Source: an uncultured Eubacteriales bacterium
Lineage (GTDB): Bacteria; Bacillota; Clostridia; Oscillospirales; Oscillospiraceae
NCBI GenBank assembly: GCA_900317425.1
Contig: ONGR01000014.1
Location: 1 to 53,165 of the forward strand
Direction: 5' to 3'
DNA length: 53,165 nt
Below the pieces are notes generated by a model. It did no database searches and was not told the DNA's origin. It saw nothing but the letters and a program-made list of their open reading frames with translations. Positions 3,001 through 51,281 of the stretch are shown here, one piece after another. The first letter of the stretch is position 1. Every line of letters starts with the position of its first letter. A program made the translations under genes and the position numbers.

Positions 3001-6000
3001 GCTCCACGTAGCGGGAGTCCTCGCAGTCAAAGACGACGGAGGGATCCTGCACGATGTCCCCGTAGATCTTGGTGCCCTCTGCCACGGGATAGAAGTTGAA
3101 GAGGTAGATGGCCAGATCGTTCTTGGTGTTGAAGGTCCAGCCGGAGAACACGCTGGAGAAGTACTCGATGCAGACCGGGTTGCCGCCGTAGGTGGCCTCC
3201 TTGTTGTAGATGACGTAGCCACCCTCCTTGGCCTTCAGGAACCACTTGGCGGTCTCGGGCAGCTTGCCGTTTTCGTCCTTGTCCACGAAGAACAGCTCCT
3301 CTTCGTTGTTGGTGGCCAGGTACTTGCCGTCCACCTCGAAGCTGTAGTAGCGGCCCATGGTGTCCACGGTGAAGACGTAGGCGCCGTTGCCGGCCTTGGC
3401 CTTGCCGCCCTCGATGGTGGTGGGCACGGCGGTCAGAGAGTAGGTGGCCTCCTTGGCAAGACCCAGAGAGGACTCGGCGTTGGAGTTGTAGATCACGTAC
3501 TGATCGCCCTTGTTCAGGACGCCGTCCCACTCGCCGTCGTCATAGGCCTCGATGGCGTCGTCGGCGTTGACCAGATAGAACTGGAGGGCGAACTCGTTCT
3601 CCACGAACTTGTTGGAGCCGGGGTTGGTGAAGTAGCCGGAGAACACCTCGGTGTCGTTGCGGACGTAGGCCTCGATATAAGCGGGGCCGTTATTGCCGGA
3701 CACGGTGGGGCTGTTGGCATAGAAGCAGTTGGCCGTCTTGGCGGGGGTCAGGGTCCAGGTGTTGTCCGGATACTTGCCCACGTCCACGCTCAGCTCGGCG
3801 TAGTTGCCGCTGGGCCAGACGGTGATGCTGCGGCTCTCGTCGCCGTAGGCATAGAAGCTGTAGGTGTTGCTGTCGGCGTTGACCTTCACGGTCCAGATCA
3901 TGTCCTCGGTGAAGTTCTCCACCTTGCCGTCCTTGTTGACGGTGGCGGCATTGGCCTTCAGATACCAGTCGCCGTTGGGCTTGGAGCTGATGGCGGTCTT
4001 GTGGCCGGGACTGTAGATGGCCACGGTGGAGCCGTCCTTCAGGTCGGCCAGGCTGGTGATCAGATCGCCGTTCTCACCGGGCTGGTCGGGAGTCTCCGGC
4101 TCGGCACCCTGCTTGTAGAAGTTGAAGACAAAGGCGCTGTTGGTGCCGGGATTGCTGTAATCCACCAGGGAGAATTCGCTGTATTTGGCGTACCAGTCGA
4201 TGTAGATGTGGCCGCCGGTCTTGCTGCTGGGCAGCTCACCCAGATAGAGGTAGCTTCCGTTGGCGGCGCTCTCCGCCGTCCACTTGGAGGCAGCGGGGTT
4301 GTTCAGCGCGATGTTGTTGTAGATCTTGCCGGAAGTGGCGTTGGTGGACTGGACGCCGCCCAGGACCTTGCTGCCCTGGGTGAAGGTGTAGGTGCCGTCG
4401 TTGTTGACGGTCACGTCCCAGACCACGGAGGCGTCGTCGGTGGTGATCACGCCCTCGGCCGGGGTCAGATCCACGCCGGCCAGATAGTAGCTGCCGACCA
4501 CGGTGGAGCTGATGCCCTTCTTGTTGGCGTCGTTGAAGAGGATCACCTTGTCGCCGGTGGCCAGAGCGGAGGTGAGGCCGTAGGTGTTGACGGTGGGCTC
4601 TTCGGGCTGATCGGGCTCATCGGGGGAGGGCAGCAGATAGAACTGCATGCCGAAGGCAGCCTCGGTCAGAGAGCCCTCGTCGGTGGAATAGCCGCAGAAG
4701 ACCCGGGTGGTGACGTTGTTGACCTTCTTGTTGTAGACCTCCACGTAGGAAGCGCCGTATTTGGTGGTCAGGGTGTTGCTGCGCATATAGAAGGTGCTGT
4801 TGGCGGCGTTGCAGACGTCCAGCTTCCAGCCGGTGTCGGCGCCGGCATGGTTGGGATCGCTGGTCAGCTCCACGAAAGTGCCGCTGAGCCAGGCGGTCAC
4901 GGCCTTGTCGTCCTGGGTGAAGGTGTAGACGCCGTCGTCAGATACGCTGACCTTCCAGATCTGGTTGTCGGCGGGCTCGGCGACCTCACCGTTTTCAATG
5001 GTGGCCTCGCCCTTGAGCAGGTACCAGTCCTGATAGGTCTCGGAGGTCATGGCGATCTCGCTGGCGGGGTTGTAGATCACCACGTAGGAGCCGTCGGTCA
5101 GATCGGCCAGATCCGTGACCAGGCCGGTCTTGGCCTCTTTCACCTCGCCGTAGAAGTTGAACACGTAGCGCTCGGGATAGGAGGTGTTCAGGCTGTAGCA
5201 GGTGAAGTAATCGTGGTAATACTGCAGATACTGGGCCTTGCCGCTGTAGGTGGCGCTGTCGCACTTCACGTAGTAGCCGCCCTCAGCGGTTTCCAACTGG
5301 AACAGGGTGTTGGCGGATGCCGCGTCCACGAACTGCACGTTGGTGCCGTCCACCTCCAGGTACTTGCCGTCCTTGTTGACGAAGGAGTACTTGCCGTCCT
5401 TGTCCACCTTCACGGTGAGATAGGCGATCGTCTCGTCGGAGACGGACATCTGATCGTTCTCGATGGTGACATTTACGGGGCTGAGCTCGTGCTTCTTGTT
5501 GTTAAAGAGGTAGTCCGTCAGACTCATGACGACGGAGCTGGCCGGGTTGCAGATGACGACCTGATCGCCGTCAGCGGGAGCCTCGGTCAGCTTGGTCAGG
5601 GTGACGGCCTGGGGATCGTCGGGGGTGGGATCGTCGGGCTGGGGATCCACCGGGGTCTCGGAGCCGGAGAGCTTCCAGATGCCCAGGGTCTGGCCGGCGG
5701 TGTTGCCGGTGGTGTTGTTGTAGGCGCGCCAATCCGGCTTGTCCACGTAGACGCCCAGATAGCGCTGTGTGCCGTCGGTATCCTTGGCGGTCAGATAGCC
5801 GCTGGCGGTGTCCACCGTCCAGGAGGCCGCGGTGTCACCCACCCGGACGCAGTTGTTCTTGCCCTTGCTGTCCAGGTAGAGGGACTTGCCATCCTTGTTT
5901 TGGATGGTGTAGCCGTCGGTAACGGCGGAAATGGTCCAGCCATAGTTGCCGGAGTCGGTGGTCAGCGTGTCGCCGCTGACGGTGGCCACGATGGCAGCGG

Positions 6001-6217
6001 GGCCGGTGGTGGCCGCGTTCGCGGGCAGTACCCAGGTGGTATCGCCCTTGGTCATGGTGATGGCCACGGTGTCCTCAGACGTGATCTGACTGAGATCCGT
6101 CTTTGTCCACGTGGCGGTGGCGGGCTCCGCCGCCCAGATGCTCGCCGGAAGCAGGCTGAAAACCATGCATAGGGAGAGCAGGAGGGAGAGGAGCTTGTGG
6201 GCGTTGCGTGTTCTCAT
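38..6217 (-). CDS. Very large secreted PHP-domain metallohydrolase with repeated N-terminal modules and dockerin-like C-terminus
   Basis: About 2059 aa. I chose the ATG at 6217 because AGAAGGAGGA precedes it; an in-frame ATG 36 nt upstream has no such site. A signal peptide (MRTRNAHKLLSLLLSLCMVF) opens the protein. Residues about 35-1060 hold six diverged modules of about 160-175 aa; they typically open like GDQVVICNPASSVVMS and five close with an F-FY strand such as YVFNFY. Ig-like segments follow. A PHP/CehA-McbA-type phosphoesterase domain sits at about 1250-1600, with metal-binding His in QLHSHTTYSDGS (H1257, H1259) and TDHSN. Then come a CARDB-like Ig domain (about 1605-1700), an OB-fold-like domain (about 1710-1850) and a dockerin-like pair of calcium loops (GDADLNGTV, DFDGNGVL) at the end. 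Family knowledge suggests an exported phosphoesterase or nuclease; the substrate is unknown. It is monocistronic with its own promoter. Confidence 0.85.
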   Translation of the reverse strand: MRTRNAHKLLSLLLSLCMVFSLLPASIWAAEPATATWTKTDLSQITSEDTVAITMTKGDTTWVLPANAATTGPAAIVATVSGDTLTTDSGNYGWTISAVTDGYTIQNKDGKSLYLDSKGKNNCVRVGDTAASWTVDTASGYLTAKDTDGTQRYLGVYVDKPDWRAYNNTTGNTAGQTLGIWKLSGSETPVDPQPDDPTPDDPQAVTLTKLTEAPADGDQVVICNPASSVVMSLTDYLFNNKKHELSPVNVTIENDQMSVSDETIAYLTVKVDKDGKYSFVNKDGKYLEVDGTNVQFVDAASANTLFQLETAEGGYYVKCDSATYSGKAQYLQYYHDYFTCYSLNTSYPERYVFNFYGEVKEAKTGLVTDLADLTDGSYVVIYNPASEIAMTSETYQDWYLLKGEATIENGEVAEPADNQIWKVSVSDDGVYTFTQDDKAVTAWLSGTFVELTSDPNHAGADTGWKLDVCNAANSTFYMRSNTLTTKYGASYVEVYNKKVNNVTTRVFCGYSTDEGSLTEAAFGMQFYLLPSPDEPDQPEEPTVNTYGLTSALATGDKVILFNDANKKGISSTVVGSYYLAGVDLTPAEGVITTDDASVVWDVTVNNDGTYTFTQGSKVLGGVQSTNATSGKIYNNIALNNPAASKWTAESAANGSYLYLGELPSSKTGGHIYIDWYAKYSEFSLVDYSNPGTNSAFVFNFYKQGAEPETPDQPGENGDLITSLADLKDGSTVAIYSPGHKTAISSKPNGDWYLKANAATVNKDGKVENFTEDMIWTVKVNADSNTYSFYAYGDESRSITVWPSGNYAELSVDVGKYPDNTWTLTPAKTANCFYANSPTVSGNNGPAYIEAYVRNDTEVFSGYFTNPGSNKFVENEFALQFYLVNADDAIEAYDDGEWDGVLNKGDQYVIYNSNAESSLGLAKEATYSLTAVPTTIEGGKAKAGNGAYVFTVDTMGRYYSFEVDGKYLATNNEEELFFVDKDENGKLPETAKWFLKAKEGGYVIYNKEATYGGNPVCIEYFSSVFSGWTFNTKNDLAIYLFNFYPVAEGTKIYGDIVQDPSVVFDCEDSRYVEQDYVLSFSLDDLAPEITDVTITYTAGTKTGTVEQTADGKAYSVTIPAADIDVADGLTSFTIKVTVKNSYGIEYEGEKVVQIVDEPFFADLTPAPNSQTRDEKKPTISAKVGNVGENPTFTMTVNDQVVEARYENGTLSYTPAADLADGRVTVKITVTRADGVTAEKIWTFTVGIAEYQLYFGQLHSHTTYSDGSGSLETALDYVASLPESANVQFVAFTDHSNYFDTTSAANPADALNDQSLMTEASRELWNTYKNTVADFNEKHTGLIAIAGFEMTWSGGPGHINTFDSDGLVSRNNAELNNKSGDAGMKLYYETINKGESLNQFNHPGTTFGNFTDFSYWDEETDEHMFLVEVGNGEGQIGAGGYYPSYEQYTMALDKGWHVAPTNNQDNHKGRWGNANDARDVILTNDFSEQGIYDAIRALRVYATEDKNLQINYTLNGEPMGTIFTDENAPEKLNIEVTLYDPDASDSIAKVELVCNNGAVAHTWDNAAELAEGSLTVELEPEYSYYFVRVTQKDGDLAVTSPVWVGHALKVGITDIKAASEPVYKGETATLTTNLFNSEAQDATVKSLVYTVGGTVIGTDSQTYTIKAGSTLDVTFDHVFDTAKLTTVTVTAIVEFEGKEYTYSANVELDILDKDTEGKVTPIKDVRDASKPDDTGYRFTIEGVVTSNASGYDKDTAFFDCIYVQDDTAGICCFPVSGEYKVGDKVRIVGHTDFYQGEPELQVQTIEVIGTGSVEPTEIAAAELNDRSAEGKLVTVKGTVESFELANGLIQTIMVKDEAGNLARVFIDGYITTAKEVENCVVGAKITVTGLASYDDTFNAPEGPFPRIRIRDRADVVCQAYQFLVDDRTGGKAATSIESGTKFGPGELTFTVACDEPCVVAVNNGDGTYTLLPCTTEGKEHQFTVTIVDADVTVSIALKGDADLNGTVALKDSTLTKRVAAGLATFDDQLAALAVDFDGNGVLNKDATKISQVVAGLSSYNW

Positions 6218-6275
6218 AGGGTGTCCTCCTTCTAAAATATCCACGTCGTGCAAATAGCTACAACATAACAGTATA

Positions 6276-36133: not shown

Positions 36134-38782
36134 TCAGAAGCCCACCTTGGCGGCGAACCCCTCCAGAGCGGTTTCGAACTCGTCGTCGGAGAAGCAGTAC
36201 TTCATCTCGGTGAAGTTGCTGCGCAGGCGGATGACGTCCTCCTTGACGTCCTTGCCGCGGAGGATGCAGTCGGCCATGATGGCGGCCAGCTGCTCGAACT
36301 CCTTCTTGCCGAAGCCGAAGCGGGTCATCTCGCTCATGCCCATGCGCAGGGCGCCGGAGGCGGTGAAGCCCTCCTCGTCCGGGGTGGCCTGATAGTTGAC
36401 GATGATGTTGTTGCGCTCCAGACGCTCGGCGATCTCGGCACCCTGGGCGTAGCCCACGGAGACGATGACCTGGTGGGTCTCGGTGTAGTCGATGGCGGGG
36501 TCGCCGCACACGTTCAGGCCCTGGGCCTTCAGGCACTTGGCGAAGTACTTGGCGTTTTCGATGATGGCCTTCTGGTACTCGTCCTTGAAATAGTTCATCT
36601 CATAGGCGGCCATCAGCAGACCCAGCTGGGTGCCCAGGTGGTGGTTGGAGACGCTGCCGGGGAAGGCGCGGCGCTCGATGGTCTCCCACAGGCCGTACTT
36701 CAGGTCGTCTTCCTTGTAGTTCACAGCCACGACACCGCGCTGGGGACCGAAGAAGGTCTTGTGGGTGGAACCGGTGACGATCTCGGCGCCCTCGGCGAAG
36801 GGCTGCTGGAAGTAGGGACCCACCAGACCCAGGACGTGGGCCATATCGTACATGATGGTGGTGGGGATCTTCTGCTCGTCCACGAACTGGCGGATGGCAG
36901 CCACGGGCTCCTTGTGCAGCACCATGCTCTTGCCGAAGATGATGAACTCGGGGCGATACTGCTCGATGACCTTCTTGGTCTCCTCCACGTCGATCTTGAA
37001 GATGTTGTCCTTGCAGACGGGGAAGTTCACCACGGCGCTGCGCTCGGTGACGGGGTCAACGGCGATGTAGTCGTGGAGAGCGCCCATGGGCTGAGCGGAC
37101 AGGTGGCCGCCCTTGATGATGTGGTTGTTCAGCACGTAGCCCAGACGCTTGGGATCATGCTTGCGGTCCAGACGGTTCTTCCAGTCCATCAGAGCGGAGA
37201 ACACGGCCATGTTGGACATCTGGCCGCTGATGACGCGGGTCTCCACCTCGGTGCAGCCGAAGTACTTGCGCAGCTCTTCCACGGCAAGCTGCTCCACCTC
37301 GTCGATAAACTTGGTGCCCTGATAATAGAAGATGTCCTTGTCATAGAAGGGGACGACCTTCTTGTGCTCGGCGTAGCGGCAGGAGGGATCGGAGGAGCAC
37401 AGCAGCTGCACGGCGCGGCTGGGGGTGTTCTCGGAGGGGATCAGGTTGATGCACTGCTTCTGGCGCCAGATGTGGTTCTCCTCGGCCTTCTTCAGCAGCT
37501 CCAGCGCCCGGACGGGACGCTCGTCGGTGCTGACCTCACGCTCAGCCAGCTCCACGCCGTAGATCAGGGGACGGGCGTAGGGAGGCGCGGTGACGCTCAT
37601 GTGGCGGGCGGGGATGGCGGCCTTCAGGCGCTTGCCGCGGATGTCCACCTCCACGACGTCGTCCACCAGCACGTCGCTGGCGATGTAGCAGGTGCCGATG
37701 GCGCGCTTGGCCACCTCGTCGGTGATGACGGTCTCCAGACCCTCACCCTCGGAGCGGTAGTAGGGCACCATGGTGCCGCTGGTGACCCAGCCGATCTGCT
37801 CGTCGCCGCGATAGATGGGCATGCCGGCGCGCATGACGCCGCGGTCCAGCAGGACGATGGGCTTGATGACCTTGGGCAGGTCGGTCAGATCGGAGAAGTC
37901 GCGGTTCTGGATGCGCTTGAAGGCCTCGCTCTGCTTCTCCAGAGGGGCGCGGCCGATGAAGCTGCCCTTGCGCTCGGAGAAGCTGACGGCAAACTTGGCC
38001 AGAGGCACGGCGAAGATCGGCATGGGCACGCCGTCGGGGTCGACGCCCATCTCGTGGCCGTACAGAGGCATACCGGCCTCCAGACGCAGGGTGTCGCGGG
38101 CACCGAGGCCGGCGGGCTTGGCGCCCAGCTCGATCAGGCGGTTCCACAGCCAGGCGGCGTCGGCGGAGGGGATGAACACCTCATAGCCCAGAGGCTCGCC
38201 GGTGTAGCCGGTCTTGGCCACGCGGACCAGGTGACCCTCGAACTCCAGGGTGTTCAGGGCGTTCTTCATGGGCTCGGTGACAGCCTCGCCGCCGGAGAGG
38301 ATCATGAGCAGCTCCTTACTCTTGGGACCCTGAACGGCAATGGAAGCCCAGTCGGCGGTGATATCGGTGATGGTGCAGTCAAAGTCCTTGACCACGTTCA
38401 TCAGGTGCTTGAGGTCCTTCTCGGTGTTGGCGGCGTTGACCACCAGCAGGAAGCGCTCCTCTTCATAGCGATAGAGGTAGGCGTCGTCCACGGCGCTGCC
38501 GTCCTCGGCGGGGATGATGCAGTACTGGGCCATGTTCAGGTCCAGGGATTCCACGTTGCTGCTGAGCACGTGCTGCAGGAAGGCCACGCGGTCGGGACCG
38601 TCGATCAGCAGACGGCCCATGTGGGACACGTCAAACAGGGAGCAGAAGTGACGGGTGTACAGATGCTCGGCGACGATGCCGGTGGGGTACTGGACGGGCA
38701 TGTCCCATCCGCCGAAATCCACCATGGTGGCGCCTGCCGCCACATGGACATCGTAGAGTTGGGTGCGCTTCAGTTCGCTCAT
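36134..38782 (-). CDS. Bifunctional aminomethyltransferase (GcvT) - serine hydroxymethyltransferase fusion
   Basis: 882 aa in one uninterrupted frame; the ATG follows AAGAAGGAGGAATATT. Residues 1 to about 405 are GcvT (DFGGWDMPVQY, VSHMGRLLIDGPDRVAFLQ, GYTGEPLGYEVF, GLGARDTLRLEAGMPLYGHE). Residues about 425-882 are a divergent SHMT with LIPSENTPSRAV (448-459), the PLP-contacting DMAH (646-649) and the Schiff-base lysine K675 in GSTHKTFFGPQRG. GcvT makes 5,10-methylene-THF from the GcvH-bound group, and SHMT adds it to a second glycine to give serine. The fusion may pass methylene-THF or THF directly between sites, in either direction. It leads the gcv operon. Confidence 0.94.
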   Translation of the reverse strand: MSELKRTQLYDVHVAAGATMVDFGGWDMPVQYPTGIVAEHLYTRHFCSLFDVSHMGRLLIDGPDRVAFLQHVLSSNVESLDLNMAQYCIIPAEDGSAVDDAYLYRYEEERFLLVVNAANTEKDLKHLMNVVKDFDCTITDITADWASIAVQGPKSKELLMILSGGEAVTEPMKNALNTLEFEGHLVRVAKTGYTGEPLGYEVFIPSADAAWLWNRLIELGAKPAGLGARDTLRLEAGMPLYGHEMGVDPDGVPMPIFAVPLAKFAVSFSERKGSFIGRAPLEKQSEAFKRIQNRDFSDLTDLPKVIKPIVLLDRGVMRAGMPIYRGDEQIGWVTSGTMVPYYRSEGEGLETVITDEVAKRAIGTCYIASDVLVDDVVEVDIRGKRLKAAIPARHMSVTAPPYARPLIYGVELAEREVSTDERPVRALELLKKAEENHIWRQKQCINLIPSENTPSRAVQLLCSSDPSCRYAEHKKVVPFYDKDIFYYQGTKFIDEVEQLAVEELRKYFGCTEVETRVISGQMSNMAVFSALMDWKNRLDRKHDPKRLGYVLNNHIIKGGHLSAQPMGALHDYIAVDPVTERSAVVNFPVCKDNIFKIDVEETKKVIEQYRPEFIIFGKSMVLHKEPVAAIRQFVDEQKIPTTIMYDMAHVLGLVGPYFQQPFAEGAEIVTGSTHKTFFGPQRGVVAVNYKEDDLKYGLWETIERRAFPGSVSNHHLGTQLGLLMAAYEMNYFKDEYQKAIIENAKYFAKCLKAQGLNVCGDPAIDYTETHQVIVSVGYAQGAEIAERLERNNIIVNYQATPDEEGFTASGALRMGMSEMTRFGFGKKEFEQLAAIMADCILRGKDVKEDVIRLRSNFTEMKYCFSDDEFETALEGFAAKVGF

Positions 38783-39539: not shown

Positions 39540-42041
39540 TTACTTGACCATCACGTTGGCGGTCAGCTTGGTGGCCTCCTTGTAGGGGCGGAAGAGCAGG
39601 TACAGCATACCCGCCACGATGGCCGCGGAGACGATGACGCCCAGGATATTGCCGCTGCCCATAAACAGGCTGGCGAGCTGATAGACGCACAGGGCCACCA
39701 GATAGGCAAAGCAGCACTCATAGCCGATGGCGAACCAGGTCCAGCGGGTGTTGTTCATCTCCCGCTTGATGGCGCCGATGGCGGCAAAGCAGGGGGCGCA
39801 CAGCAGGTTGAACACCAGGAAGGAGTAGCCGCTGGCGCCGTTGAAGGTCTGGGCCAGGTTCTGCCACACGCTGCCCTCGCCCGCACCGTAGAGAATGCCC
39901 ATGGTGCCCACGATGTTCTCCTTGGCCACAAGACCGGTGATGGAGGCCACAGCGGCCTGCCAGTTGCCCCAGCCCAGGGGGATGAACAGCCAGGCGATGG
40001 CCCGGCCCACGGTGGCCAGGATGCTCATGTCGATCTCATCCTCGGCCAGCATGCGGAAGCCGTCGGGGGTGGAGCCGAAGAAGCTGAGGAACCAGATGAC
40101 GATGGTGGACAGCAGGATGATGGTGCCGGCCTTCTTGATGAAGGACCAGCCCCGCTCCCACATGCTGCGCAGCACGTTGCCCAGAGTGGGCCAGTGGTAG
40201 GCGGGCAGCTCCATGACGAAGGGGGCGGGCTCGCCGGCGAACATCTTGGTCTTCTTCAGGATGATGCCGGAGATGATGATGGCGGCCAGACCCACGAAGT
40301 AGGCGGAGGTGGCCACCCAGGCGCTGCCGCCGAAGATGGCGCCGGCGATCATGGCGATGAAGGGCACCTTGGCGCCGCAGGGGATGAAGGTGGTGGTCAT
40401 GATGGTCATGCGGCGGTCCCGCTCATTTTCTATGGTACGGGACGCCATGACGCCGGGGATCCCGCAGCCGGTGCCGATCAGGATGGGGATGAAGGACTTG
40501 CCGGACAGGCCGAAGCGGCGGAAGATGCGGTCCAGCACGAAGGCGATGCGGGCCATGTAGCCGCAGGCCTCCACGAAGGCCAGCAGGAAGAACAGCACCA
40601 GCATCTGGGGCACAAAGCCCAGCACGGCGCCCACGCCAGCCACGATGCCGTCCAGGATCAGGCCCTTCAGCCAGTCGGCACAGCCGATCTTGTCCAGCAG
40701 GCCCTCGATGAGAACGGGGACGCCGGGCACCCACACGCCGTAGTCGGCGGGATCCGGCTCGTCCAGACCGTTCTCCTCCAGATAGGCCACGGCCTCACGG
40801 AAGGACATGGAATTGGTGGTCTCCCCGTCGGCGTCCTCCGGGACGGCGTCAAAGTAGACGGTCAGCTCGCTCTCGGCCAGCGTCTCCTCGTCCTCCACGG
40901 TGACCTGGGCGGTGGCGGGGCCGGAGGTGACGGACTTGATCTGCGCCATAATGGCATGGGGATCATAGTCATCGGCCTCGGGGTCGATCTCCAGATCGGC
41001 CACGAAGGCGTCCACGGCGTTCCTGGCGGCGGTGTAGTCGTCGCTGACCTCCTCATATGCCTTGGAGCCGATCCCGAACAGGTGCCAGCCGTCGCCGAAG
41101 AGACCGTCGTTGGCCCAGTCGGTGGCGGCGGCGCCAACGGTGACCATGGAGATGTAGTAGATCAGGAACATGACCAGAGCGAAGATGGGCAGGCCCAGCC
41201 ACCGGTTGGTGACGATCTTGTCGATCTTGTCGGAGGCAGACAGCTGACCGGAGGCCTTCTTCTTGTAGCAGGCCTTCAGGACGTCGGCGATGTAGACGTA
41301 GCGCTCGTTGGTGATGATGGACTCGGCGTCGTCGTCCAGCTCGGCCTCAGCGGCCTTGATGTCCTCGTCGATGTGGGCCAGGGTATCTGCGGGGATGTTC
41401 AGCCGGCTGAGCACCTTGTCGTCCCGCTCGAAGATCTTGACGGCGTACCAGCGCTGCTGCTCGGCCGGCAGGCCGTGGACCGCCGCCTCCTCGATGTGGG
41501 CCAGAGCGTGCTCCACCGGGCCGGAGAAGGTGTGCATGGGCACGGTCCTGGCGCCTCTGGCAGCTTCGATGGCGGCCTCGGCGGCCTCCATGACGCCGTC
41601 GCCCTTCAGGGCGGAGATCTCCACGATCCGGCAGCCCAGCTGGCGGCTCAGCTCTTCGGTGTTGATGGTGTCGCCGCTCTTGCGGACCACGTCCATCATG
41701 TTGATGGCCAGCACCACGGGGATGCCCAGCTCCGTCAGCTGGGTGGTCAGGTACAGGTTGCGCTCCAGGTTGGTGCCGTCGATGATGTTGAGGATGGCGT
41801 CGGGCCGCTCGCCGATCAGGTAGTTTCGGGCCACCACCTCCTCCAACGTGTAAGGGGACAGGGAGTAGATGCCGGGCAGGTCGGTGATGATGACGCCGTC
41901 GTGCTTTTTCAGCCGGCCCTCCTTCTTCTCCACGGTGACGCCGGGCCAGTTGCCCACGAACTGGTTGGAGCCGGTCAGGGCGTTGAACAGCGTGGTCTTT
42001 CCGCTGTTGGGGTTGCCCGCCAGGGCAATTCTCAGATCCAT
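39540..42041 (-). CDS. feoB: Ferrous iron transporter FeoB
   Basis: 833 aa; the ATG at 42041 (MDLRIALAGNPNSGKT) follows AGAAAGGAACGTTTGTT. It has an N-terminal GTPase with G1 GNPNSGKT (9-16) and G3 DLPG, a helical GDI domain (about 170-265), then membrane segments with two Gate domains, including LIGTGCGIPGVMASRTIENE and TFIPCGAKVPFIAMIAGA. An acidic insertion of about 110 residues (about 310-430; for example DLEIDPEADDYDPH) splits the first membrane segments and should face outside. FeoB imports Fe2+ under anaerobic conditions. Confidence 0.95.
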   Translation of the reverse strand: MDLRIALAGNPNSGKTTLFNALTGSNQFVGNWPGVTVEKKEGRLKKHDGVIITDLPGIYSLSPYTLEEVVARNYLIGERPDAILNIIDGTNLERNLYLTTQLTELGIPVVLAINMMDVVRKSGDTINTEELSRQLGCRIVEISALKGDGVMEAAEAAIEAARGARTVPMHTFSGPVEHALAHIEEAAVHGLPAEQQRWYAVKIFERDDKVLSRLNIPADTLAHIDEDIKAAEAELDDDAESIITNERYVYIADVLKACYKKKASGQLSASDKIDKIVTNRWLGLPIFALVMFLIYYISMVTVGAAATDWANDGLFGDGWHLFGIGSKAYEEVSDDYTAARNAVDAFVADLEIDPEADDYDPHAIMAQIKSVTSGPATAQVTVEDEETLAESELTVYFDAVPEDADGETTNSMSFREAVAYLEENGLDEPDPADYGVWVPGVPVLIEGLLDKIGCADWLKGLILDGIVAGVGAVLGFVPQMLVLFFLLAFVEACGYMARIAFVLDRIFRRFGLSGKSFIPILIGTGCGIPGVMASRTIENERDRRMTIMTTTFIPCGAKVPFIAMIAGAIFGGSAWVATSAYFVGLAAIIISGIILKKTKMFAGEPAPFVMELPAYHWPTLGNVLRSMWERGWSFIKKAGTIILLSTIVIWFLSFFGSTPDGFRMLAEDEIDMSILATVGRAIAWLFIPLGWGNWQAAVASITGLVAKENIVGTMGILYGAGEGSVWQNLAQTFNGASGYSFLVFNLLCAPCFAAIGAIKREMNNTRWTWFAIGYECCFAYLVALCVYQLASLFMGSGNILGVIVSAAIVAGMLYLLFRPYKEATKLTANVMVK

Positions 42042-42063
42042 AACAAACGTTCCTTTCTCTCTT

Positions 42064-42079
42064 GTTAGCAAAAACTAAC
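42064..42079. promoter_or_regulatory. Putative metalloregulator operator S4 upstream of feoB
   Basis: GTTAGCAAAAACTAAC, a perfect GTTAG-N6-CTAAC inverted repeat, 23 nt before the feoB start. Same motif as three sites upstream of the first feoA gene. Confidence 0.65.
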
Positions 42080-44014: not shown

Positions 44015-44043
44015 TTGCAAACGGCAAAGGGCGTTGGTATAAT
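44015..44043 (+). promoter_or_regulatory. Promoter of the cobalamin uptake operon
   Basis: TTGCAA (44015-44020), 17-nt spacer, perfect TATAAT (44038-44043), about 25 nt before the riboswitch. Confidence 0.78.
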
Positions 44044-44065
44044 ATTTCTGTTACAATATTTTTCA

Positions 44066-44232
44066 GTGCTTCGGGGCGGAACGCCCCGTTGAAAGAGGGA
44101 ATCAGGTGCAAATCCTGAACGATCCGGTCACTGTGAGCGGGGAGTCCCGGCGAGAGGGGTGCCATTGTGCCGCGTGCATGAGAAGGCGTTGCCGGGGTGA
44201 TGATCCGCAAGTCAGGAAACCTGCTGAAAAAG
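44066..44232 (+). ncRNA. Cobalamin riboswitch 1
   Basis: The leader contains the expected series: AGGTGCAAATCC, GGTCACTGTGAGCGGGGAG, GCCATTGTGCC, CATGAGAAGGCG and the B12 box AAGTCAGGAAACCTGC. These match the core of adenosylcobalamin-class riboswitches as I know them. The same core is repeated at 48849-49008. It should lower expression of the downstream operon when cobalamin is plentiful, through the terminator at 44308-44341. Confidence 0.92.
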
Positions 44233-44291
44233 TGGTTGGGACCTCCGAAGAAGGCTAATTCCACAATAAGAAGGCTGCGCGGGGTGTCTGC

Positions 44292-44341
44292 GCAGGCTTG
44301 TCGTTGTGCCTGCTTTCCCGGGAGAGCGGGCCTTTATTTTT
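44292..44341 (+). terminator. Riboswitch expression platform: terminator with overlapping antiterminator
   Basis: Terminator stem GCCTGCTTTC (44308-44317) / GAGAGCGGGC (44322-44331) with a CCGG loop, followed by CTTTATTTTT. An alternative stem GCAGGC (44292-44297) / GCCTGC (44308-44313) uses the same left arm and would block it. Confidence 0.8.
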
Positions 44342-44381
44342 GGAATCGGAGCAACAATATATGATAAAGGAGTATTGGAAC

Positions 44382-45443
44382 ATGAAGCGAGTGAAGAGAT
44401 TGCTGTGTGCCGCGCTGGCGGCGGTGACCCTGCTGGCCGCGGCGGCCCTTGCCGCTCCCCGGGCCTACGCCGCCGACTATGAGGACGGCACCTATACGGT
44501 GAGTATCGATCTGGGAAGCAGCGGTATGAACCACAATACGCTGGTATCCCCCGCCACGGTATATATTGAAGGCGGCGATATCTATATCGACCTGGTGTTC
44601 AAGCGGGTGAAGTCGGCAAGCCATGCGCCGCAGTATACGCAGCTGACCACAGCCTGCGGCACCTATACCGACCCTGAACTTGATGACAACGCGCTGACCT
44701 GCACCTTCTATCACGTGCAGGTGCCCAGCCTGGGCAGCGTGTCCATTTCCACCGTTACCGAGGCCATGTCCCAGCCCTATGAGGTGTCGTATACCATCAC
44801 CATCGACGACTCTGGCATCCCGGTGAAGCAGGCTCAGCAGCCCTCTACGCCCAGCACACCGTCCACGCCCAGTGCACCGTCTACGCCCAGCACGCCGTCC
44901 ACGCCCAGTACACCGTCCACGCCCGGCACGCCGTCCACCCCCAGCGCACCGTCCACCCCCGGTACGCCGTCGACTCCCGCCGCCCCCTCTACCCCGGGGA
45001 CCACGGAGCCCACAAAGCCCGACACACCGACAGCGCCGGAGGATGCCGCCGCCTTTGAGCGGTTCAAGGCCGAGCAGAAGGCGGCCATGGACAAGCTGGC
45101 GGAGGACGGCGACAGCGAGGCCGCCGCGAAGCTCATCGAGGAGGCTGGCAAAGCCATCGACGCACTGACCTACGACGAGAGCAAGTCCCTGGAGGAGAAC
45201 GAGAAGGCCGCCGCCGAGCTGCTGACCAAGCTGGAGGCGGATCTGGCCGCCCAGCGCCAGAAGGACGGCAAAGATGACAAGAAGGACGAGTCCGCCACCA
45301 CCGAGACCACCGGCGAGGTGACCGTCACCGCCGCCCCGGCGAAGAAGCTGAGCACCGGCGCCATCATCGGCATCGCGGCCGCCGCTGCGGCGGTCATCGG
45401 CGCAGGCATTTGGCTGGTGCTGAAGCAGCGCAAGACGAAGTAA
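44382..45443 (+). CDS. Membrane-anchored surface protein with NEAT-like domain, cobalamin-riboswitch controlled
   Basis: 353 aa; the ATG at 44382 follows AAAGGAGTATTGGAAC. A signal peptide (1 to about 31, AYA-AD) is followed by a NEAT-like beta domain (about 33-145: EDGTYTVSIDLGSSGMNHNT, SPATVYIEGGDIYIDLVFK) that ends with a YEVSY motif (Y133, Y137), the YXXXY spacing used for haem in NEAT domains. Next are about 60 residues of Pro-Ser-Thr repeats (PSTPSTPSAP), a helical segment (about 225-310) and a C-terminal transmembrane helix with a KQRKTK tail. NEAT domains usually bind haem; here the riboswitch and the following ABC genes suggest a corrinoid ligand. That change of ligand is inference. 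Confidence 0.82.
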   Translation: MKRVKRLLCAALAAVTLLAAAALAAPRAYAADYEDGTYTVSIDLGSSGMNHNTLVSPATVYIEGGDIYIDLVFKRVKSASHAPQYTQLTTACGTYTDPELDDNALTCTFYHVQVPSLGSVSISTVTEAMSQPYEVSYTITIDDSGIPVKQAQQPSTPSTPSTPSAPSTPSTPSTPSTPSTPGTPSTPSAPSTPGTPSTPAAPSTPGTTEPTKPDTPTAPEDAAAFERFKAEQKAAMDKLAEDGDSEAAAKLIEEAGKAIDALTYDESKSLEENEKAAAELLTKLEADLAAQRQKDGKDDKKDESATTETTGEVTVTAAPAKKLSTGAIIGIAAAAAAVIGAGIWLVLKQRKTK

Positions 45444-45458
45444 CCGAGGTATCACAGC

Positions 45459-46616
45459 ATGAAGAAAAACCTGTCATTCCGCGCGCCGGCCCTGCTGCTG
45501 GCGCTGTGCATGGCGTTGAGCCTGCTGCTTACCGGCTGCGGCGGAAAGGGAAATAGCAATGGCGAAGCCCCAACCGTCGGCAACCTGAAGTACGAGAGTA
45601 CCATGCCCCTGGAATATGCCGACCAGTTCGCCGTCTATCGGTACGAGGGCGGCTACTCCCTCATCGATATGGTGGACAGCGACCGGATCCTGGTGGTGCC
45701 GGAGGGGAAGGAGATCCCCGACGGACTGGACGATGACATCGTGGTGGTGCAGCAGCCCCTGGACCACATCTACATGGCCGCCACCTCCGCCATGGCCCTG
45801 TTCGACGCCATTGACGCTCTGGACACCATCGCTTTTGTGGGTACCCAGCACTGGTATATCGAAAACGCCATCCAAGCCATGCAGGACGGGAAATTTATCT
45901 ATGCCGGCAAATACAACACTCCCGACTATGAGATGCTCATCAACCAGGGCTGCCAGCTGGCCATCGAGTCCACCATGATCCTCCATAACCCTGAGGTCAA
46001 GGAGAAGATGATGGAGCTGGGCATCAAGACCGTGGTGGAGCGCTCCAGCTACGAGGATCACCCCCTGGGCCGTACCGAGTGGGTGAAGCTCTACGGGGTC
46101 CTTTTGGGCAAAGAGGAGGAGGCGGAGGCCGCCTTCCGTACGGAGGTGGACAAGATCAAGGCCCTGGAGGGTACGGAGAGCACCGGCAAGACCGTGGCAT
46201 TCTTCTATGTCAATTCCAACGGCAATGTGGTTACCTACAAGACCAACGGTTATGTGCCGTCCATGATCCGCATCGCCGGCGGCGAGTACATCTTCACCGA
46301 TCTGGGGCTGGACGAGGACAGCAAGCTCAGCACCGTCAACATGAATATGGAGGAGTTCTACTACACCGCCAAGGACGCCGACATCATCATCTATAACTGC
46401 AGCATTGTTTCCCAGCTCCACACGCTGGAGGACTTCTTTGATCAGAGCCCCGTGCTGAAGGATTTCAAGGCCGTGCAGGAGGACAACGTCTGGTGTACCA
46501 GCCGCAGTATGTTCCAGCAGACCGATAAGATGGGCAGTATTATAGAGGAGATGCACGCCATTTTCACCGGCGAGGCGGAGGGGGAGGATCTCCACTATAT
46601 CTTCAAACTGCAGTAA
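45459..46616 (+). CDS. btuF: Cobalamin-type ABC importer substrate-binding lipoprotein
   Basis: 385 aa with a lipoprotein signal (LLLTGC, C27). The body is a FepB/BtuF-type binding protein: AATSAMALFDAIDALDTIAF, NTPDYEMLINQGCQLAIEST, ERSSYEDHPLGRTEWVKLYG. It should bind the ligand outside the membrane and deliver it to the permease. It lies 15 nt after the surface protein gene and 15 nt before the permease gene, in one operon under riboswitch 1. The BtuF label follows from that context, as the family also takes siderophores and haem. Confidence 0.85.
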   Translation: MKKNLSFRAPALLLALCMALSLLLTGCGGKGNSNGEAPTVGNLKYESTMPLEYADQFAVYRYEGGYSLIDMVDSDRILVVPEGKEIPDGLDDDIVVVQQPLDHIYMAATSAMALFDAIDALDTIAFVGTQHWYIENAIQAMQDGKFIYAGKYNTPDYEMLINQGCQLAIESTMILHNPEVKEKMMELGIKTVVERSSYEDHPLGRTEWVKLYGVLLGKEEEAEAAFRTEVDKIKALEGTESTGKTVAFFYVNSNGNVVTYKTNGYVPSMIRIAGGEYIFTDLGLDEDSKLSTVNMNMEEFYYTAKDADIIIYNCSIVSQLHTLEDFFDQSPVLKDFKAVQEDNVWCTSRSMFQQTDKMGSIIEEMHAIFTGEAEGEDLHYIFKLQ

Positions 46617-46631
46617 ACGAGGAGAAATCGT

Positions 46632-47672
46632 ATGAGCCAGAAGGCAACTGACAATCCGAATATGCGCCTGGCCCGGTATGGCGCGGTGTTTCTCGGCCTG
46701 GCCGTGGCCTTCGTGCTGCTGACGGTGTGGAACATCAACTCCGGCAGCGTCAAGATCCCCGTGGGGGACATCGCCCGGATCCTGCTGACCCGGACCGGCG
46801 ACGAGACACAGGTGGGCATCATCTGGAAGCTGCGCCTGCCCCGGATCATCGCCGCGGCGGTGCTGGGCGGCGGCCTGGCCCTGTCCGGCTTTCTGATGCA
46901 GACCTTCTTCGGCAACCCCATCGCCGGACCCTTCGTGCTGGGCATCTCCTCCGGCTCCAAGCTGTTCGTGGCGCTGGTGATGATCGTGGCGCTGCAGTAC
47001 GTGTCCTTCGTCTCCTCGTGGATGATGGTCATCGCCGCCTTTGCCGGCGCTCTGATCGCCATGGGCTTCGTGCTGCTGGCGGCCCGGTCCATCAAGCAGA
47101 TGTCCATGCTGCTGGTGGCGGGCATCATGATCAGCTATATCTGCTCGGCCATCACCGAGTTCCTCATCACCTTTGCCAAGGATTCCGACATCGTGAACCT
47201 CCATAGCTGGTCCCAGGGCAGCTTTTCCGGCACCAAGTGGGACGACGTGAAGGTGTTCACCTTCATCATTCTGGCCTGCTTCGTGGCGGTGTTCTGTATG
47301 TCCAAGCCCATCGGCGCCTACCAGATGGGCGAGGCCTACGCCCAGAGCATGGGCGTCAACGTCAAGCGCTTCCGGGTGGTGCTGATCCTCATGTCCAGCC
47401 TCATCGCCGGCTGCGTCACCGCCTTCGCCGGGCCCATCTCCTTCGTGGGCATCGCCGTGCCCCATCTCATCAAGATGCTGATGAAGACCGCCAAGCCCAT
47501 CGTGGTGATCCCGGCCTCCTTCCTGGGGGGCGGCGTGTTCTGCCTGCTGTGCGACTACATCGCCCGCACCGCCTTCGCCCCGGTGGAGCTGACCATCAGC
47601 ACCGTGACAGCCCTGTTCGGCGCCCCGGTGGTCATCGGCATGCTGATCCGCCGCCACGGCGGCAGAGCGTAA
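46632..47672 (+). CDS. btuC: Cobalamin-type ABC importer permease (FecCD family)
   Basis: 346 aa, about nine or ten helices. Family segments include LRLPRIIAAAVLGGGLALSG (about 64-83), QTFFGNPIAGPFVLGISSGS and GPISFVGIAVPHLIKMLM (coupling region). It starts after AACGAGGAGAAATCGT. It forms the membrane channel with the neighbouring ATPase. Ligand assignment rests on the riboswitch. Confidence 0.9.
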   Translation: MSQKATDNPNMRLARYGAVFLGLAVAFVLLTVWNINSGSVKIPVGDIARILLTRTGDETQVGIIWKLRLPRIIAAAVLGGGLALSGFLMQTFFGNPIAGPFVLGISSGSKLFVALVMIVALQYVSFVSSWMMVIAAFAGALIAMGFVLLAARSIKQMSMLLVAGIMISYICSAITEFLITFAKDSDIVNLHSWSQGSFSGTKWDDVKVFTFIILACFVAVFCMSKPIGAYQMGEAYAQSMGVNVKRFRVVLILMSSLIAGCVTAFAGPISFVGIAVPHLIKMLMKTAKPIVVIPASFLGGGVFCLLCDYIARTAFAPVELTISTVTALFGAPVVIGMLIRRHGGRA

Positions 47673-47684
47673 GGAGGGCAGGCC

Positions 47685-48785
47685 ATGAACGAGTACTATT
47701 TCCGGACGGAGGACCTGTCCGTCGGCTACAACGGCAATACCCTCATCCATAGCATCGATATCCGTATCAAGGCCGGAGAGATCCTGACCCTCATCGGGCC
47801 CAACGGCTCCGGCAAGTCCACTATATTGAAGAGCATCACCAAGCACCTCGCCGCCATCCATGGCGACAGCTATATCGCCGACGCCTCGGTGAAGGCCATG
47901 AGCTACAAGGAGCTGTCGAAGAAGCTGGCGGTGGTGCTGACGGAGCGCATCAAGGGCGAGCTGCTGACCTGCTACGACGTGGTGGCCACCGGCCGCTATC
48001 CCTATACCAATACCCTGGGCCTGCTGTCTCCCGAGGACCGGGCCAAGGTCTACGCCGCCATGGAGCGGGTCCACGCGGCGGACCTGGCGGATCGGGACTT
48101 CACCGCCATCAGCGACGGACAGCGCCAGCGGATCCTGCTGGCCCGGGCCATCTGCCAGGAGCCGGAGATCATCGTGCTGGACGAGCCCACCTCCTTCCTG
48201 GATATCCGCCACAAGCTGGAGCTTTTGAGCATCCTCCGGTCCATGGCCAAGGAGAAGGGCATCACCGTCATCATGTCCCTCCACGAGATCGATCTGGCCC
48301 AGAAGATCTCCGATAAGGTCATGTGCGTCCGGGGCGAGACCATCGAGCACTTCGGCGCGCCGGAAGAGATCTTCCGGGAGGATATCATCGCCCCTCTCTA
48401 CGGCATCACCCGGGGCTCCTACAACATCACCTTCGGCAGCGTGGAGCTGCCCCGGCCGGAGGGGGAGCCCAAGGTGTTCGTCATCTCCGGCTGCGGCAGC
48501 GGCGTGGACACCTTCCGCCGCCTGCAGAAGGAGGACCGGCCCTTCTACGCCGGTATCCTCTATGAAAACGACGTGGACTGTCAGGTGGCCCGGAATCTGG
48601 CGGCGGAGGTCATCACGGAGAAACCGTTCCTGCCCATCCGCGACGAGACCTATGACCGGGCGCTGGAGCGAATGAAAACGTGCGACACCGTCATCTGTAC
48701 CGGCGTCCCCATCGGGGAGACCAACCGGCGCGTGGCGGAGCTGATAGAAGAAGCGAGGTCCCTGGGACTTCTGCGGGAGGAATGA
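47685..48785 (+). CDS. btuD: Cobalamin-type ABC importer ATPase with extra C-terminal domain
   Basis: 366 aa, about 100 longer than a plain BtuD/FecE. Walker A GPNGSGKST (38-46), signature ISDGQRQR (142-149, with SDGQ in place of SGGQ), Walker B IIVLDEPTS (162-170) and switch His (H200) are intact. Residues about 262-366 form a separate alpha/beta domain (KVFVISGCGSGVDTFRRLQK, YAGILYENDVDCQVARNLAA, DTVICTGVPIGETNRRVAEL) with a Rossmann-like look; I cannot name it. It may sense a ligand or regulate the transporter. RBS TAAGGAGGGCAGGCC. Confidence 0.9.
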   Translation: MNEYYFRTEDLSVGYNGNTLIHSIDIRIKAGEILTLIGPNGSGKSTILKSITKHLAAIHGDSYIADASVKAMSYKELSKKLAVVLTERIKGELLTCYDVVATGRYPYTNTLGLLSPEDRAKVYAAMERVHAADLADRDFTAISDGQRQRILLARAICQEPEIIVLDEPTSFLDIRHKLELLSILRSMAKEKGITVIMSLHEIDLAQKISDKVMCVRGETIEHFGAPEEIFREDIIAPLYGITRGSYNITFGSVELPRPEGEPKVFVISGCGSGVDTFRRLQKEDRPFYAGILYENDVDCQVARNLAAEVITEKPFLPIRDETYDRALERMKTCDTVICTGVPIGETNRRVAELIEEARSLGLLREE

Positions 48786-48848
48786 ATGCGGACCGCCCAG
48801 GCGCAGGGGGCGGGATAGAAGGGACCTGCCGGGAAACACAGTTCTCCC

Positions 48849-49008
48849 AGTGCCGCGCAGGCGGGTAAAAGGGAACCGGGTGCAAATCCCGGGCGATCCG
48901 GTCACTGTGAGCGGGGAGCGGCGCAGCAAAGGCCATTGTGCCTGCGGGCATGAGAAGGCGCTGCCGCCGCGCAGACCCGCAAGCCAGGAAACCTGCCGGG
49001 AAACTGCA
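48849..49008 (+). ncRNA. Cobalamin riboswitch 2 (operon-internal)
   Basis: It repeats the core of riboswitch 1 almost base for base: GGTGCAAATCC, GGTCACTGTGAGCGGGGAG, GGCCATTGTGCC, GCATGAGAAGGCG and the B12 box AAGCCAGGAAACCTGCC. It lies between the ATPase gene and the 718-aa surface protein gene. I see no clear promoter in the 63-nt gap, so it may be transcribed by read-through. No U-tract terminator follows; a GGGGCTG/CAGCCCC hairpin sits just before the ribosome site, so control may be translational. Confidence 0.92.
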
Positions 49009-49050
49009 GAGCAAGTGGGGCTGCCGAGTACAGCCCCGGAAGGAGGAAAC

Positions 49051-51207
49051 ATGAAGAAAACAACCAACAAGCTGCTGTCGCTGCTGCTGGCACTGACCAT
49101 GATCTTCTCGTGCGTCATGCCGGTGTTCGGCGAAGGCACCAAGACGGTGGACGAGGTCAGAACTGAGATCCAGGCCCTGTCCGCCGACGCCAGAGAGTAC
49201 ACCGCCGCGGACCGGCAGCGGGTGGAGGCCATCAAAGCCGATTATGACGCCCTGAGCGCAGCCGACCAGGAAACCCTGGACAAGGAATGCAGCCATGATG
49301 GAACGGGCCAACCCCTTGGCCGCGTGCTGGAGTCCGCGCTGTGGACGGTCTGGTCCTTTGATCCCGCCGACAACAGCACCACTCTGCCCGACGGCACCTA
49401 TGACAAGAGCAGCAATCCTGCCTTGAGCTCCGCGTACAGCAAGGGCAAGAGCACCTCTTCCCGCCAAAAGGCCTGGAGCGTGAAGGACGTCACGGTGAAG
49501 GACGGCAAGGCCACCGCTACCATTGCCGTGGAAAGCGGCTCCTATACCGGTATCATGCTCTACGGCACCACCTATGAGAGGACCGGCGGGACCAACAAGA
49601 CCAGTGAGTTTGCCAACGTGCCCATCGACCTGAACAGCACGTTCTATTTCAACGGCATCTCCAGCAGCATGCCTACGCCCATCGCCTTCTCCCTGACCAC
49701 TACCATCGAGGAACCGGCCGAGGAGCAGCCCGCCGAGCCGGAGCGGATCGACCTGACCATCACCAACAACACCGGCATGTTCAAGGCCGTGACGGCCTGG
49801 CTGGAGATCCAGGACGGTAAGACCGATCTGGTGATGGCCCTGTCCGGCAGCGGCTACAAGGAGCTGTTCATGGGCACCTATGAGGAGGCTGTGGCCAATG
49901 GCGACGGCACGGCCGACAAGGGCAACGACAGCTGGATCCATGGCTATACCAACGAGGCCGGCAAGCTGGAGTTCCGCATTCCCGTGGAGGACGGCGTGAC
50001 CTATATGCCGGTGGTGGCCGTGTCCAACAGCTACTACAACAAGTATCTGGACGGCAAGAACGCCCTGGCGCGGGCTTTCTATCCCCGGCAGATGGAGCTG
50101 GACCGCGAGGCCAAGACCCTGGTGACCGGCGACTATGAGTTCAGCCAGGAACTGACCGTCACCAATAACGTGAAGATGTTCAAGGTATCCGGGGCTACGC
50201 TGGATACCGTGGGCGGGCCCAACAGCAACAACTACAAGGTCAGCCTGGTGCTGACCATGGGCAGCGACTCCTTCGACAAGGCGTACGTGGGCCGGGCTGC
50301 CGAGGCCAATGATAAGGCTGCCGTTTCCCTGGGCGAGGGCAGAGTGTTTGACCTGCCCATGAAGTGGGTGCAGGAGTTCGGCCAGCCGGAGACGCTGGTG
50401 AGCCTGCTGGGCGAGCCCTTTGTGGTGAGCTTCCACTCCGTGAAGAACGACGCCTGGTATGAGCGGCAGTTCACCGTCAGCGAGAAGGACGGCACCCTGG
50501 TCATCGACGAGGTGGCCGCCGACTACACCGCCGTGGACGAAGCGCTGGCCAAGGTCCCCTCCGACGAGGAGCTGGCCAACTACACCGACGAGAGCGTCCA
50601 GGCCCTGAAGGACGCCATCGCCGCCGTGGAGCGTGGCCTGACCAGCAAGGACCAGAGCAAGGTGGACGCCATGGCCAAGGCCATTGAGGACGCCCTGTCC
50701 GGTCTGGTGAAGAAGGACGAGGAAGCCCAGGATGAGGTCACCTACACCTTTGTGGTGGGAGGTGACGGTCAGTGGACCAAGGGCTCCGGCGAGACCTTCG
50801 TGGTCACCGTGAAGCGCAGCGTCGATGACGAGACCACCTTCGGCCGCTTTGCCGGCGTCGAGGTGGACGGCAAGACCGTGGATCCCGCCAACTACGAGGC
50901 CGTGGCCGGCAGCGTGAAGATCACCCTGAAGAGCGCTTATCTGGAGACGCTCTCCGCCGGTGAGCATACCGTCACCGTCAAGTTTGACGACGGTCAGGCG
51001 GAGACCAAGCTGACCGTTCTGGCTGCCGCCGGCGAGACCCCCGTCAAGCCTGATGACGGCAAGCCCGTTGATCCCGCCAAGCCTGTTGACGGCAAGGAGA
51101 CCCCCAAGACCGGCGACAGCGGCGTGATGCTGTGGGCGGTTCTGGGCTGCGTGTCCGCCGCCGGCGCCGCCGTGGTGCTGGGCCGCAAGAAGGAGACCGC
51201 CCGGTAA
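49051..51207 (+). CDS. Wall-anchored multi-domain surface protein under a cobalamin riboswitch
   Basis: 718 aa; ATG after GGAAGGAGGAAAC. A signal peptide (about 1-27) and a helical segment (30-80) are followed by a beta domain (about 85-220: AWSVKDVTVKDGKATATIAV). Two copies of a module come next (about 231-350 and 365-487), each starting near MFK-V and containing G-AxEA-like turns (FMGTYEEAV; YVGRAAEAN), the second ending WYERQFTV. Then a FIVAR-like helical bundle (490-553), an Ig/X2-like domain (563-656), a Pro/Asp/Lys linker and a sorting-like end: TPKTG (684-688), hydrophobic helix, RKKETAR. It probably captures corrinoid or its carrier at the wall and passes it to the ABC system; that is inference from the riboswitch. 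Confidence 0.82.
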   Translation: MKKTTNKLLSLLLALTMIFSCVMPVFGEGTKTVDEVRTEIQALSADAREYTAADRQRVEAIKADYDALSAADQETLDKECSHDGTGQPLGRVLESALWTVWSFDPADNSTTLPDGTYDKSSNPALSSAYSKGKSTSSRQKAWSVKDVTVKDGKATATIAVESGSYTGIMLYGTTYERTGGTNKTSEFANVPIDLNSTFYFNGISSSMPTPIAFSLTTTIEEPAEEQPAEPERIDLTITNNTGMFKAVTAWLEIQDGKTDLVMALSGSGYKELFMGTYEEAVANGDGTADKGNDSWIHGYTNEAGKLEFRIPVEDGVTYMPVVAVSNSYYNKYLDGKNALARAFYPRQMELDREAKTLVTGDYEFSQELTVTNNVKMFKVSGATLDTVGGPNSNNYKVSLVLTMGSDSFDKAYVGRAAEANDKAAVSLGEGRVFDLPMKWVQEFGQPETLVSLLGEPFVVSFHSVKNDAWYERQFTVSEKDGTLVIDEVAADYTAVDEALAKVPSDEELANYTDESVQALKDAIAAVERGLTSKDQSKVDAMAKAIEDALSGLVKKDEEAQDEVTYTFVVGGDGQWTKGSGETFVVTVKRSVDDETTFGRFAGVEVDGKTVDPANYEAVAGSVKITLKSAYLETLSAGEHTVTVKFDDGQAETKLTVLAAAGETPVKPDDGKPVDPAKPVDGKETPKTGDSGVMLWAVLGCVSAAGAAVVLGRKKETAR

Positions 51208-51240: not shown

Positions 51241-51281
51241 AAGAGCAGGCGCCTTCCGAGGCGTCTGCTCCTTTCGTTTTG
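51241..51281. terminator. Terminator after the 718-aa gene
   Basis: Stem GAGCAGGCGCCT / AGGCGTCTGCTC with a TCCG loop, then CTTTCGTTTT; A8 on the left side makes it usable from the other strand too. Confidence 0.85.

Follow-up and report, generated by a model that had tools for sequence, protein, structure and literature searches.

NEAT domains are known for binding haem; in Isd, the haem relay found in Staphylococcus and Bacillus, a lipoprotein and a FecCD-type channel are supplied by NEAT-fold proteins of the wall and the membrane. The locus analysed here resembles this relay in the same types of protein and in the YxxxY motif of its membrane-anchored NEAT protein, but differs from it by its cobalamin riboswitch, by its co-occurrence with CbiC, by not reaching the IsdC and IsdE models, and by a histidine in place of the first tyrosine of the motif in most of its relatives. 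Its binding protein, permease and ATPase are of the same families as those of the corrinoid importer BtuFCD, with which it also shares the cobalamin riboswitch; here, however, the importer is preceded by NEAT-fold surface proteins, the equivalog cut-offs are missed, and the system is absent from the CbiC-negative genomes among the 148 surveyed. A parallel in function is offered by BtuG, BtuH and BtuJ of Bacteroides, surface proteins that capture B12 ahead of the importer (for BtuH, the available text of PMC8941943); BtuJ, a beta-jelly-roll protein, binds B12 with tyrosine round the corrin (available text of PMC12751083). These are Gram-negative proteins, however, and they bind finished cobamides.

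Periplasmic or surface homologues of CbiK, such as Desulfovibrio CbiK and Porphyromonas FetB, likewise place this protein beside tetrapyrrole transport. One B12 element regulates both cbiK-cbiL and btuCDF in Desulfovibrio (PMC545781), and a source that covers NEAT and Isd proteins also takes up FetB, in connection with metal exchange on porphyrins (PMC13402209), although the available portions of these texts mention no NEAT domain alongside either homologue. Tetrapyrrole-precursor salvagers, mostly Firmicutes, possess corrin genes and lack the early ring-building genes; the class was predicted from genomes, with 5-aminolevulinate dependence verified in three species, but it is a metabolic class for which the available text names no importer (Shelton et al., PMC6461909). 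In the literature searched, outside which most subscription papers lie, we found no NEAT domain tied to cobalamin riboswitches or cobalamin uptake, in agreement with an earlier note on this DNA, made from the sequence alone, which knew of no described system of this composition.

The window, i.e., the whole stretch of 53,165 nucleotides analysed, carries the five genes that the earlier note had described, together with the two cobalamin riboswitches said to bracket them (Table 1). Both riboswitches were recovered by Rfam covariance search at scores far above the curated cut-off of 31.5 bits; they flank the genes of the NEAT membrane protein and of the BtuF/C/D-type importer, and the gene of the sortase-type wall protein lies 3′ of aptamer 2. 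The promoter-like site ends immediately 5′ of aptamer 1, and the same consensus scan listed none directly 5′ of aptamer 2. A terminator-like hairpin 3′ of aptamer 1, ahead of the first gene, suggests transcriptional control, and the consensus scans make it plausible that the locus is read as a single transcript with one leading and one internal riboswitch. On the other strand, a gene for the ferrous iron transporter FeoB (window 39540-42071, − strand) adjoins the locus; FeoB is also found beside the system in a related genome, G121 (L049).

Table 1. Features of the locus, in window coordinates.
Feature	Position	Strand	Basis
Promoter-like site TTGCAA-17-TATAAT, TG before hexamer 2	44015..44043	+	Consensus scan only
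Cobalamin riboswitch aptamer 1 (RF00174)	44046..44242	+	97.7 bits
Terminator-like hairpin between aptamer 1 and first gene	44308..44331	+	Consensus scan and fold
Membrane-anchored NEAT-fold protein, 353 aa	44382..45443	+	
Modelled segment: NEAT-fold domain with Y133xxxY137	44466..44837	+	pLDDT 93.3; structure search
Lipoprotein-type substrate-binding protein (SBP), Peripla_BP_2	45459..46616	+	Pfam; lipobox read by eye from translation
FecCD/BtuC-type permease	46632..47672	+	
BtuD-type ATPase with C-terminal extension	47685..48785	+	PRK09536 aligns over 9-355
Cobalamin riboswitch aptamer 2 (RF00174)	48831..49013	+	97.0 bits
Multi-module wall-anchored protein, 718 aa, TPKTG anchor	49051..51207	+	
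NEAT-fold module, residues 112-222 of wall protein	49384..49716	+	
Beta modules 2 and 3 of wall protein (residues ~235-331 and ~360-476)	49753..50478	+	NEAT-like by iterated profile only
FIVAR-like three-helix module, residues 488-555	50512..50715	+	
Ig-like X2/Shr-HID-like module, residues 565-660	50743..51030	+	Pfam, sub-threshold
Terminator-like hairpin 3′ of last gene	51243..51270	+	Consensus scan

The NEAT-like domain and YxxxY motif that had been claimed for the membrane-anchored protein find clear support in the predicted structure: all 42 best PDB entries retrieved with the model of its modelled segment are NEAT proteins, and Y133 and Y137 lie on the last strand (residues 103-113 of the model). 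On this model the NEAT beta-sandwich fold is real. Pfam does not follow the structure search here, as the NEAT family (PF05031) scores 15.0 and 18.3 bits on this protein against a curated cut-off of 32.8; a relative (L131) reaches 34.9 bits, and 33 of 59 aligned domains match PF05031 at E 0.1. Across these 59 domains the first position of the motif, which we take to have a functional role in NEAT domains, is histidine in 48, tyrosine in 10 and valine in one, and the second is invariably tyrosine (59/59). The wall-anchored, multi-module character proposed for the 718-aa protein was also confirmed, its sortase-type anchor scoring 22.2 bits with the LPXTG anchor model (cut-off 15.9). This protein holds at least one NEAT-fold module, its first, the two further modules being unproven. 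The idea that all of its modules are NEAT domains was dropped, since modules 2 and 3 fail hhalign; module 2 had no PDB match by profile search, and in the structure searches with a 633-residue model Ig-like and FIVAR hits took up the lists, so that modules 2 and 3 could still be NEAT folds.

The importer proved to be of BtuF/BtuC/BtuD type, as had been proposed, at the level of families: Peripla_BP_2, FecCD and ABC_tran components are all present, and the best NCBIfam models are BtuC (PRK03784) for the permease, at 208 bits against an equivalog cut-off of 334, and the corrinoid ABC ATPase (PRK09536) for the ATPase, at 204 bits against 537. Isd equivalog models remain far below their cut-offs (IsdC, 13.1 against 155.85 bits; IsdE, 23.6 against 298.65 bits).

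The order NEAT protein-SBP-permease-ATPase-wall protein recurs in relatives, as does the second riboswitch 3′ of the ATPase gene. The first 152 residues of the NEAT protein match in 24 of 149 genomes, that of the window included, and one genome (G010) has a single frame of 1274 aa that combines a NEAT domain with wall-type modules. A scan of genome contigs with an SBP profile gave at least 588 relatives, of which the best 80, taken as loci, belong to Oscillospiraceae metagenome-assembled genomes from rumen and gut, to Blautia and other Lachnospiraceae, and to [Eubacterium] infirmum. Among these best 80 of at least 588, a sample biased by the fact that the profile was made from NEAT-linked loci, 75 have a NEAT-like domain and 62 a same-strand riboswitch no more than 7 kb 5′ of the SBP gene; for the 61 loci with at least 3.5 kb of upstream sequence the corresponding counts are 59 and 57. 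RF00174 occurs somewhere in 79 of the 80 genomes behind these loci. Applied without this selection of loci, a NEAT domain profile, itself built from loci of the SBP profile, gave 51 matches in 28 of 148 related genomes, and at least 37 of the 51, on at least 27 of 37 contigs and in at least 20 of 28 genomes, follow a same-strand riboswitch at a distance of 5 kb or less. The co-occurrence with cobalamin riboswitches for which the earlier note had proposed a survey is thus found in most loci and most matches. The same note had raised Fur-type iron control of homologues; most of those examined lie under cobalamin riboswitches, the control element searched for in these loci.

No riboswitch was found around the system in the stretches scanned of G060, G080, G141, G139 (at a contig end) and G078. 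A reading of the distant NEAT relatives as possible haem systems, originally based on a riboswitch in only one of 15 short fetched loci, was undercut when whole-genome searches located one further upstream in seven of 13 contigs outside G076 and G013; none was located on the other six, of which that of G139 is cut by its contig end. Pfam NEAT matches only four of the 148 genomes, one of them above the cut-off, which is too few for a haem-NEAT control. Note also that two loci (L071 and L119) have an importer and a riboswitch near the SBP gene with no NEAT-like gene detected 5′ of it, and that a pyrrolysine insertion element, PYLIS_2 (L130:6895-6994), lies near a copy of the system for which no riboswitch was detected.

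The system occurs together with B12 ring synthesis. CbiC was found in 44 of the 148 related genomes, namely in all 28 with the NEAT profile vs. 16 of the 120 without it (Fisher p 3e-19, kinship ignored); within the genus of the window, the counts are 15/15 and 0/17, and RF00174 nevertheless matches in 13 of these 17 NEAT-less members (E 0.001 or better), in some cases weakly. None of the 104 CbiC-negative genomes among the 148 has the NEAT profile; at least 57 of these 104 have a cobalamin riboswitch match, as such matches occur in 101 genomes. NEAT and CbiC lie at most 20 kb apart in 15 of the 28 genomes. In the window's genome, Pfam places CbiD, CbiG, CbiJ, CbiC, an aminotransferase, two tetrapyrrole methylases and two CobB/CobQ-type amidotransferases in one cluster, which we read as probably running CbiD-F-G-H-J-ET-A-B-CobD-P-C. 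Met_synt_B12 was also tried and proved uninformative.

HemB (ALAD) was detected in 20 of the 148 genomes, but in no member of the window's genus (32 genomes); 22 of the 28 NEAT-profile genomes gave no HemB, including that of the window, whose assembly is 96.37% complete. As regards the marks of precursor salvagers, CbiC and HemB were compared, and the window's genome has CbiC and no detected HemB. Judged by HemB, the carriers without it apparently cannot build the tetrapyrrole ring. The NEAT profile occurs in 22 of 26 CbiC-positive genomes without HemB (it is missing from the other four) vs. 6 of 18 with it (p 0.001). Counted by genus, over 27 CbiC-positive genera, this contrast fades to 6 of 10 vs. 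6 of 17, and the link with HemB therefore rests largely on one genus, which is not so for the link with CbiC.

CbiK is a sirohydrochlorin cobaltochelatase, and it lies within the operon of 47 of the best 80 of at least 588 loci. A cultured commensal, Blautia caecimuris DSM 29492 (L107), has the operon in its CbiK-NEAT-BtuFCD form. A signal-like segment precedes the domain in 39 of the 50 CbiK proteins encoded at these 80 loci, with a lipobox-like motif in 21; among the remaining 11, five are truncated by the start of a contig, three resemble signal peptides yet are sub-threshold, and three look cytosolic. These counts follow the stricter of two rules, as a looser one gave 47 of 50 but passed cytosolic copies. 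The operon of the window itself has no CbiK, and the nearest rumen clade mostly lacks it in this operon. Elsewhere in the same genome the NEAT-like domain is found at two other riboswitch sites. On contig C17 (L055:2224-4025) a riboswitch precedes a CbiK lipoprotein, after which comes a NEAT-like lipoprotein; this CbiK, aligned with PDB 1qgo (CbiK), 9b86 (FetB) and 2xvx (putative chelatase), keeps the GHG, VE and GDH motifs, to which we presume a catalytic role. On contig C37 (L056:9675-15379) a riboswitch locus codes for CbiK, a two-NEAT membrane protein, a NAD_binding_7 protein, which we read as probably precorrin-2 dehydrogenase-like, and a second importer composed of binding protein, FecCD permease and ATPase.

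In G121 (L049, L148) one strand carries, in order, a riboswitch, an exported CbiK, a double NEAT lipoprotein, SBP, permease, ATPase, CbiA, CbiC, CbiD and CbiF; further 3′, reading from frame starts without a model scan gives CbiG, CbiH, CbiJ-ET, CbiB, CobD and CbiP, and finally an adenosyltransferase, CobT, CobU and CobS. No HemA-D was seen by this reading in the run up to CobS. Here the import module looks like the head of a long cbi/cob operon. In G078 (L146:2096-4241), CbiH, CbiJ, a CbiK with an export signal, a NEAT lipoprotein, a CbiA-like frame and CbiC follow one another, with no ABC importer between.

A surface relay, in which capture at wall and membrane would hand over to the importer, is well supported. 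The earlier note had proposed such a relay for corrinoids, and its NEAT fold, wall placement, cobalamin control and gene order stand; corrinoid cargo is not established, and the presence of CbiC in 28 of 28 genomes, the missing HemB in 22 of 28, the exported CbiK and the cbi operon of G121 point to a precursor instead. We tentatively propose, at a confidence only just below even, a surface system that captures and imports tetrapyrroles for B12 synthesis, with a precursor as cargo, likely sirohydrochlorin or cobalt-sirohydrochlorin. By analogy with Isd, the wall protein would catch the tetrapyrrole outside the cell and pass it via the membrane NEAT protein and the lipoprotein to the ABC channel, and the riboswitches would close this route once B12 suffices. 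In many relatives cobalt would be inserted outside the cell, by the exported CbiK; the genome of the window has such a CbiK lipoprotein at a different riboswitch locus, where a separate NEAT-like lipoprotein accompanies it. From these genomic patterns, a B12-pathway precursor is favoured over finished B12 or haem because the system is confined to CbiC genomes, because a sirohydrochlorin chelatase is exported and because HemB was not found in most carriers; sirohydrochlorin or its cobalt form is the best candidate because the chelatase fits it best. Against this stand the weakness of the HemB link across genera and the lack of CbiK in the window operon. A wider proposal is a NEAT importer of sirohydrochlorin or cobalt-sirohydrochlorin, working in many species with an extracellular CbiK. 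The surface would then be the site of the first committed step of B12 synthesis, and gut clostridia would use the rings of others; this proposal is possible but leans toward doubtful.

A corrinoid relay, with cobamides or cobinamide captured by the NEAT proteins for delivery to a true BtuFCD, the view of the earlier note, would account for the riboswitches and for the BtuC and corrinoid ATPase models being the best ones; B12 producers may also salvage corrinoids, and the CbiK-less operon of the window keeps this reading alive. We nevertheless consider it rather doubtful, given that the profile is missing from the CbiC-negative genomes of the 148, where scavenging should matter most and of which many possess a cobalamin riboswitch, that the exported chelatase has no obvious part in it, and that both the BtuC and BtuD equivalog cut-offs are missed. 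Uptake of haem or porphyrin, serving iron supply or metal exchange and brought under cobalamin control, appears improbable. The fold and YxxxY motif are those of haem NEATs, the CbiK relative 9b86 is named heme-binding protein FetB in the PDB, and FeoB adjoins the locus; yet riboswitch control and CbiC co-occurrence, which weaken a plain haem-NEAT reading, the histidine at the first motif position of most aligned domains and the distant IsdC and IsdE models all speak against it, and we know of no way to convert haem back into a corrin precursor. That a general set of adhesins or surface proteins stands by chance beside a B12 importer is very improbable: FIVAR-like and Ig-like wall modules are common in surface proteins, but the NEAT-like domain accompanies the importer in nearly all of the best 80 of at least 588 loci and reappears at the other riboswitch sites of the window's genome.

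A widespread NEAT branch under cobalamin riboswitches would widen the range of cargo of this fold. If precursor import is true, the system would be a candidate importer for the tetrapyrrole-precursor salvagers and would imply that ring precursors are traded among bacteria of the rumen and the gut; if corrinoids are carried instead, it would be a Gram-positive counterpart of the surface B12 capture of Bacteroides. We also would like to record two open frames on the − strand of the window: a very long one at 41-6253, itself without Pfam match at E 1e-10 and overlapped by a + strand frame, and one at 36137-38782, in which an aminomethyltransferase (GCV_T) domain is fused to a serine hydroxymethyltransferase domain.
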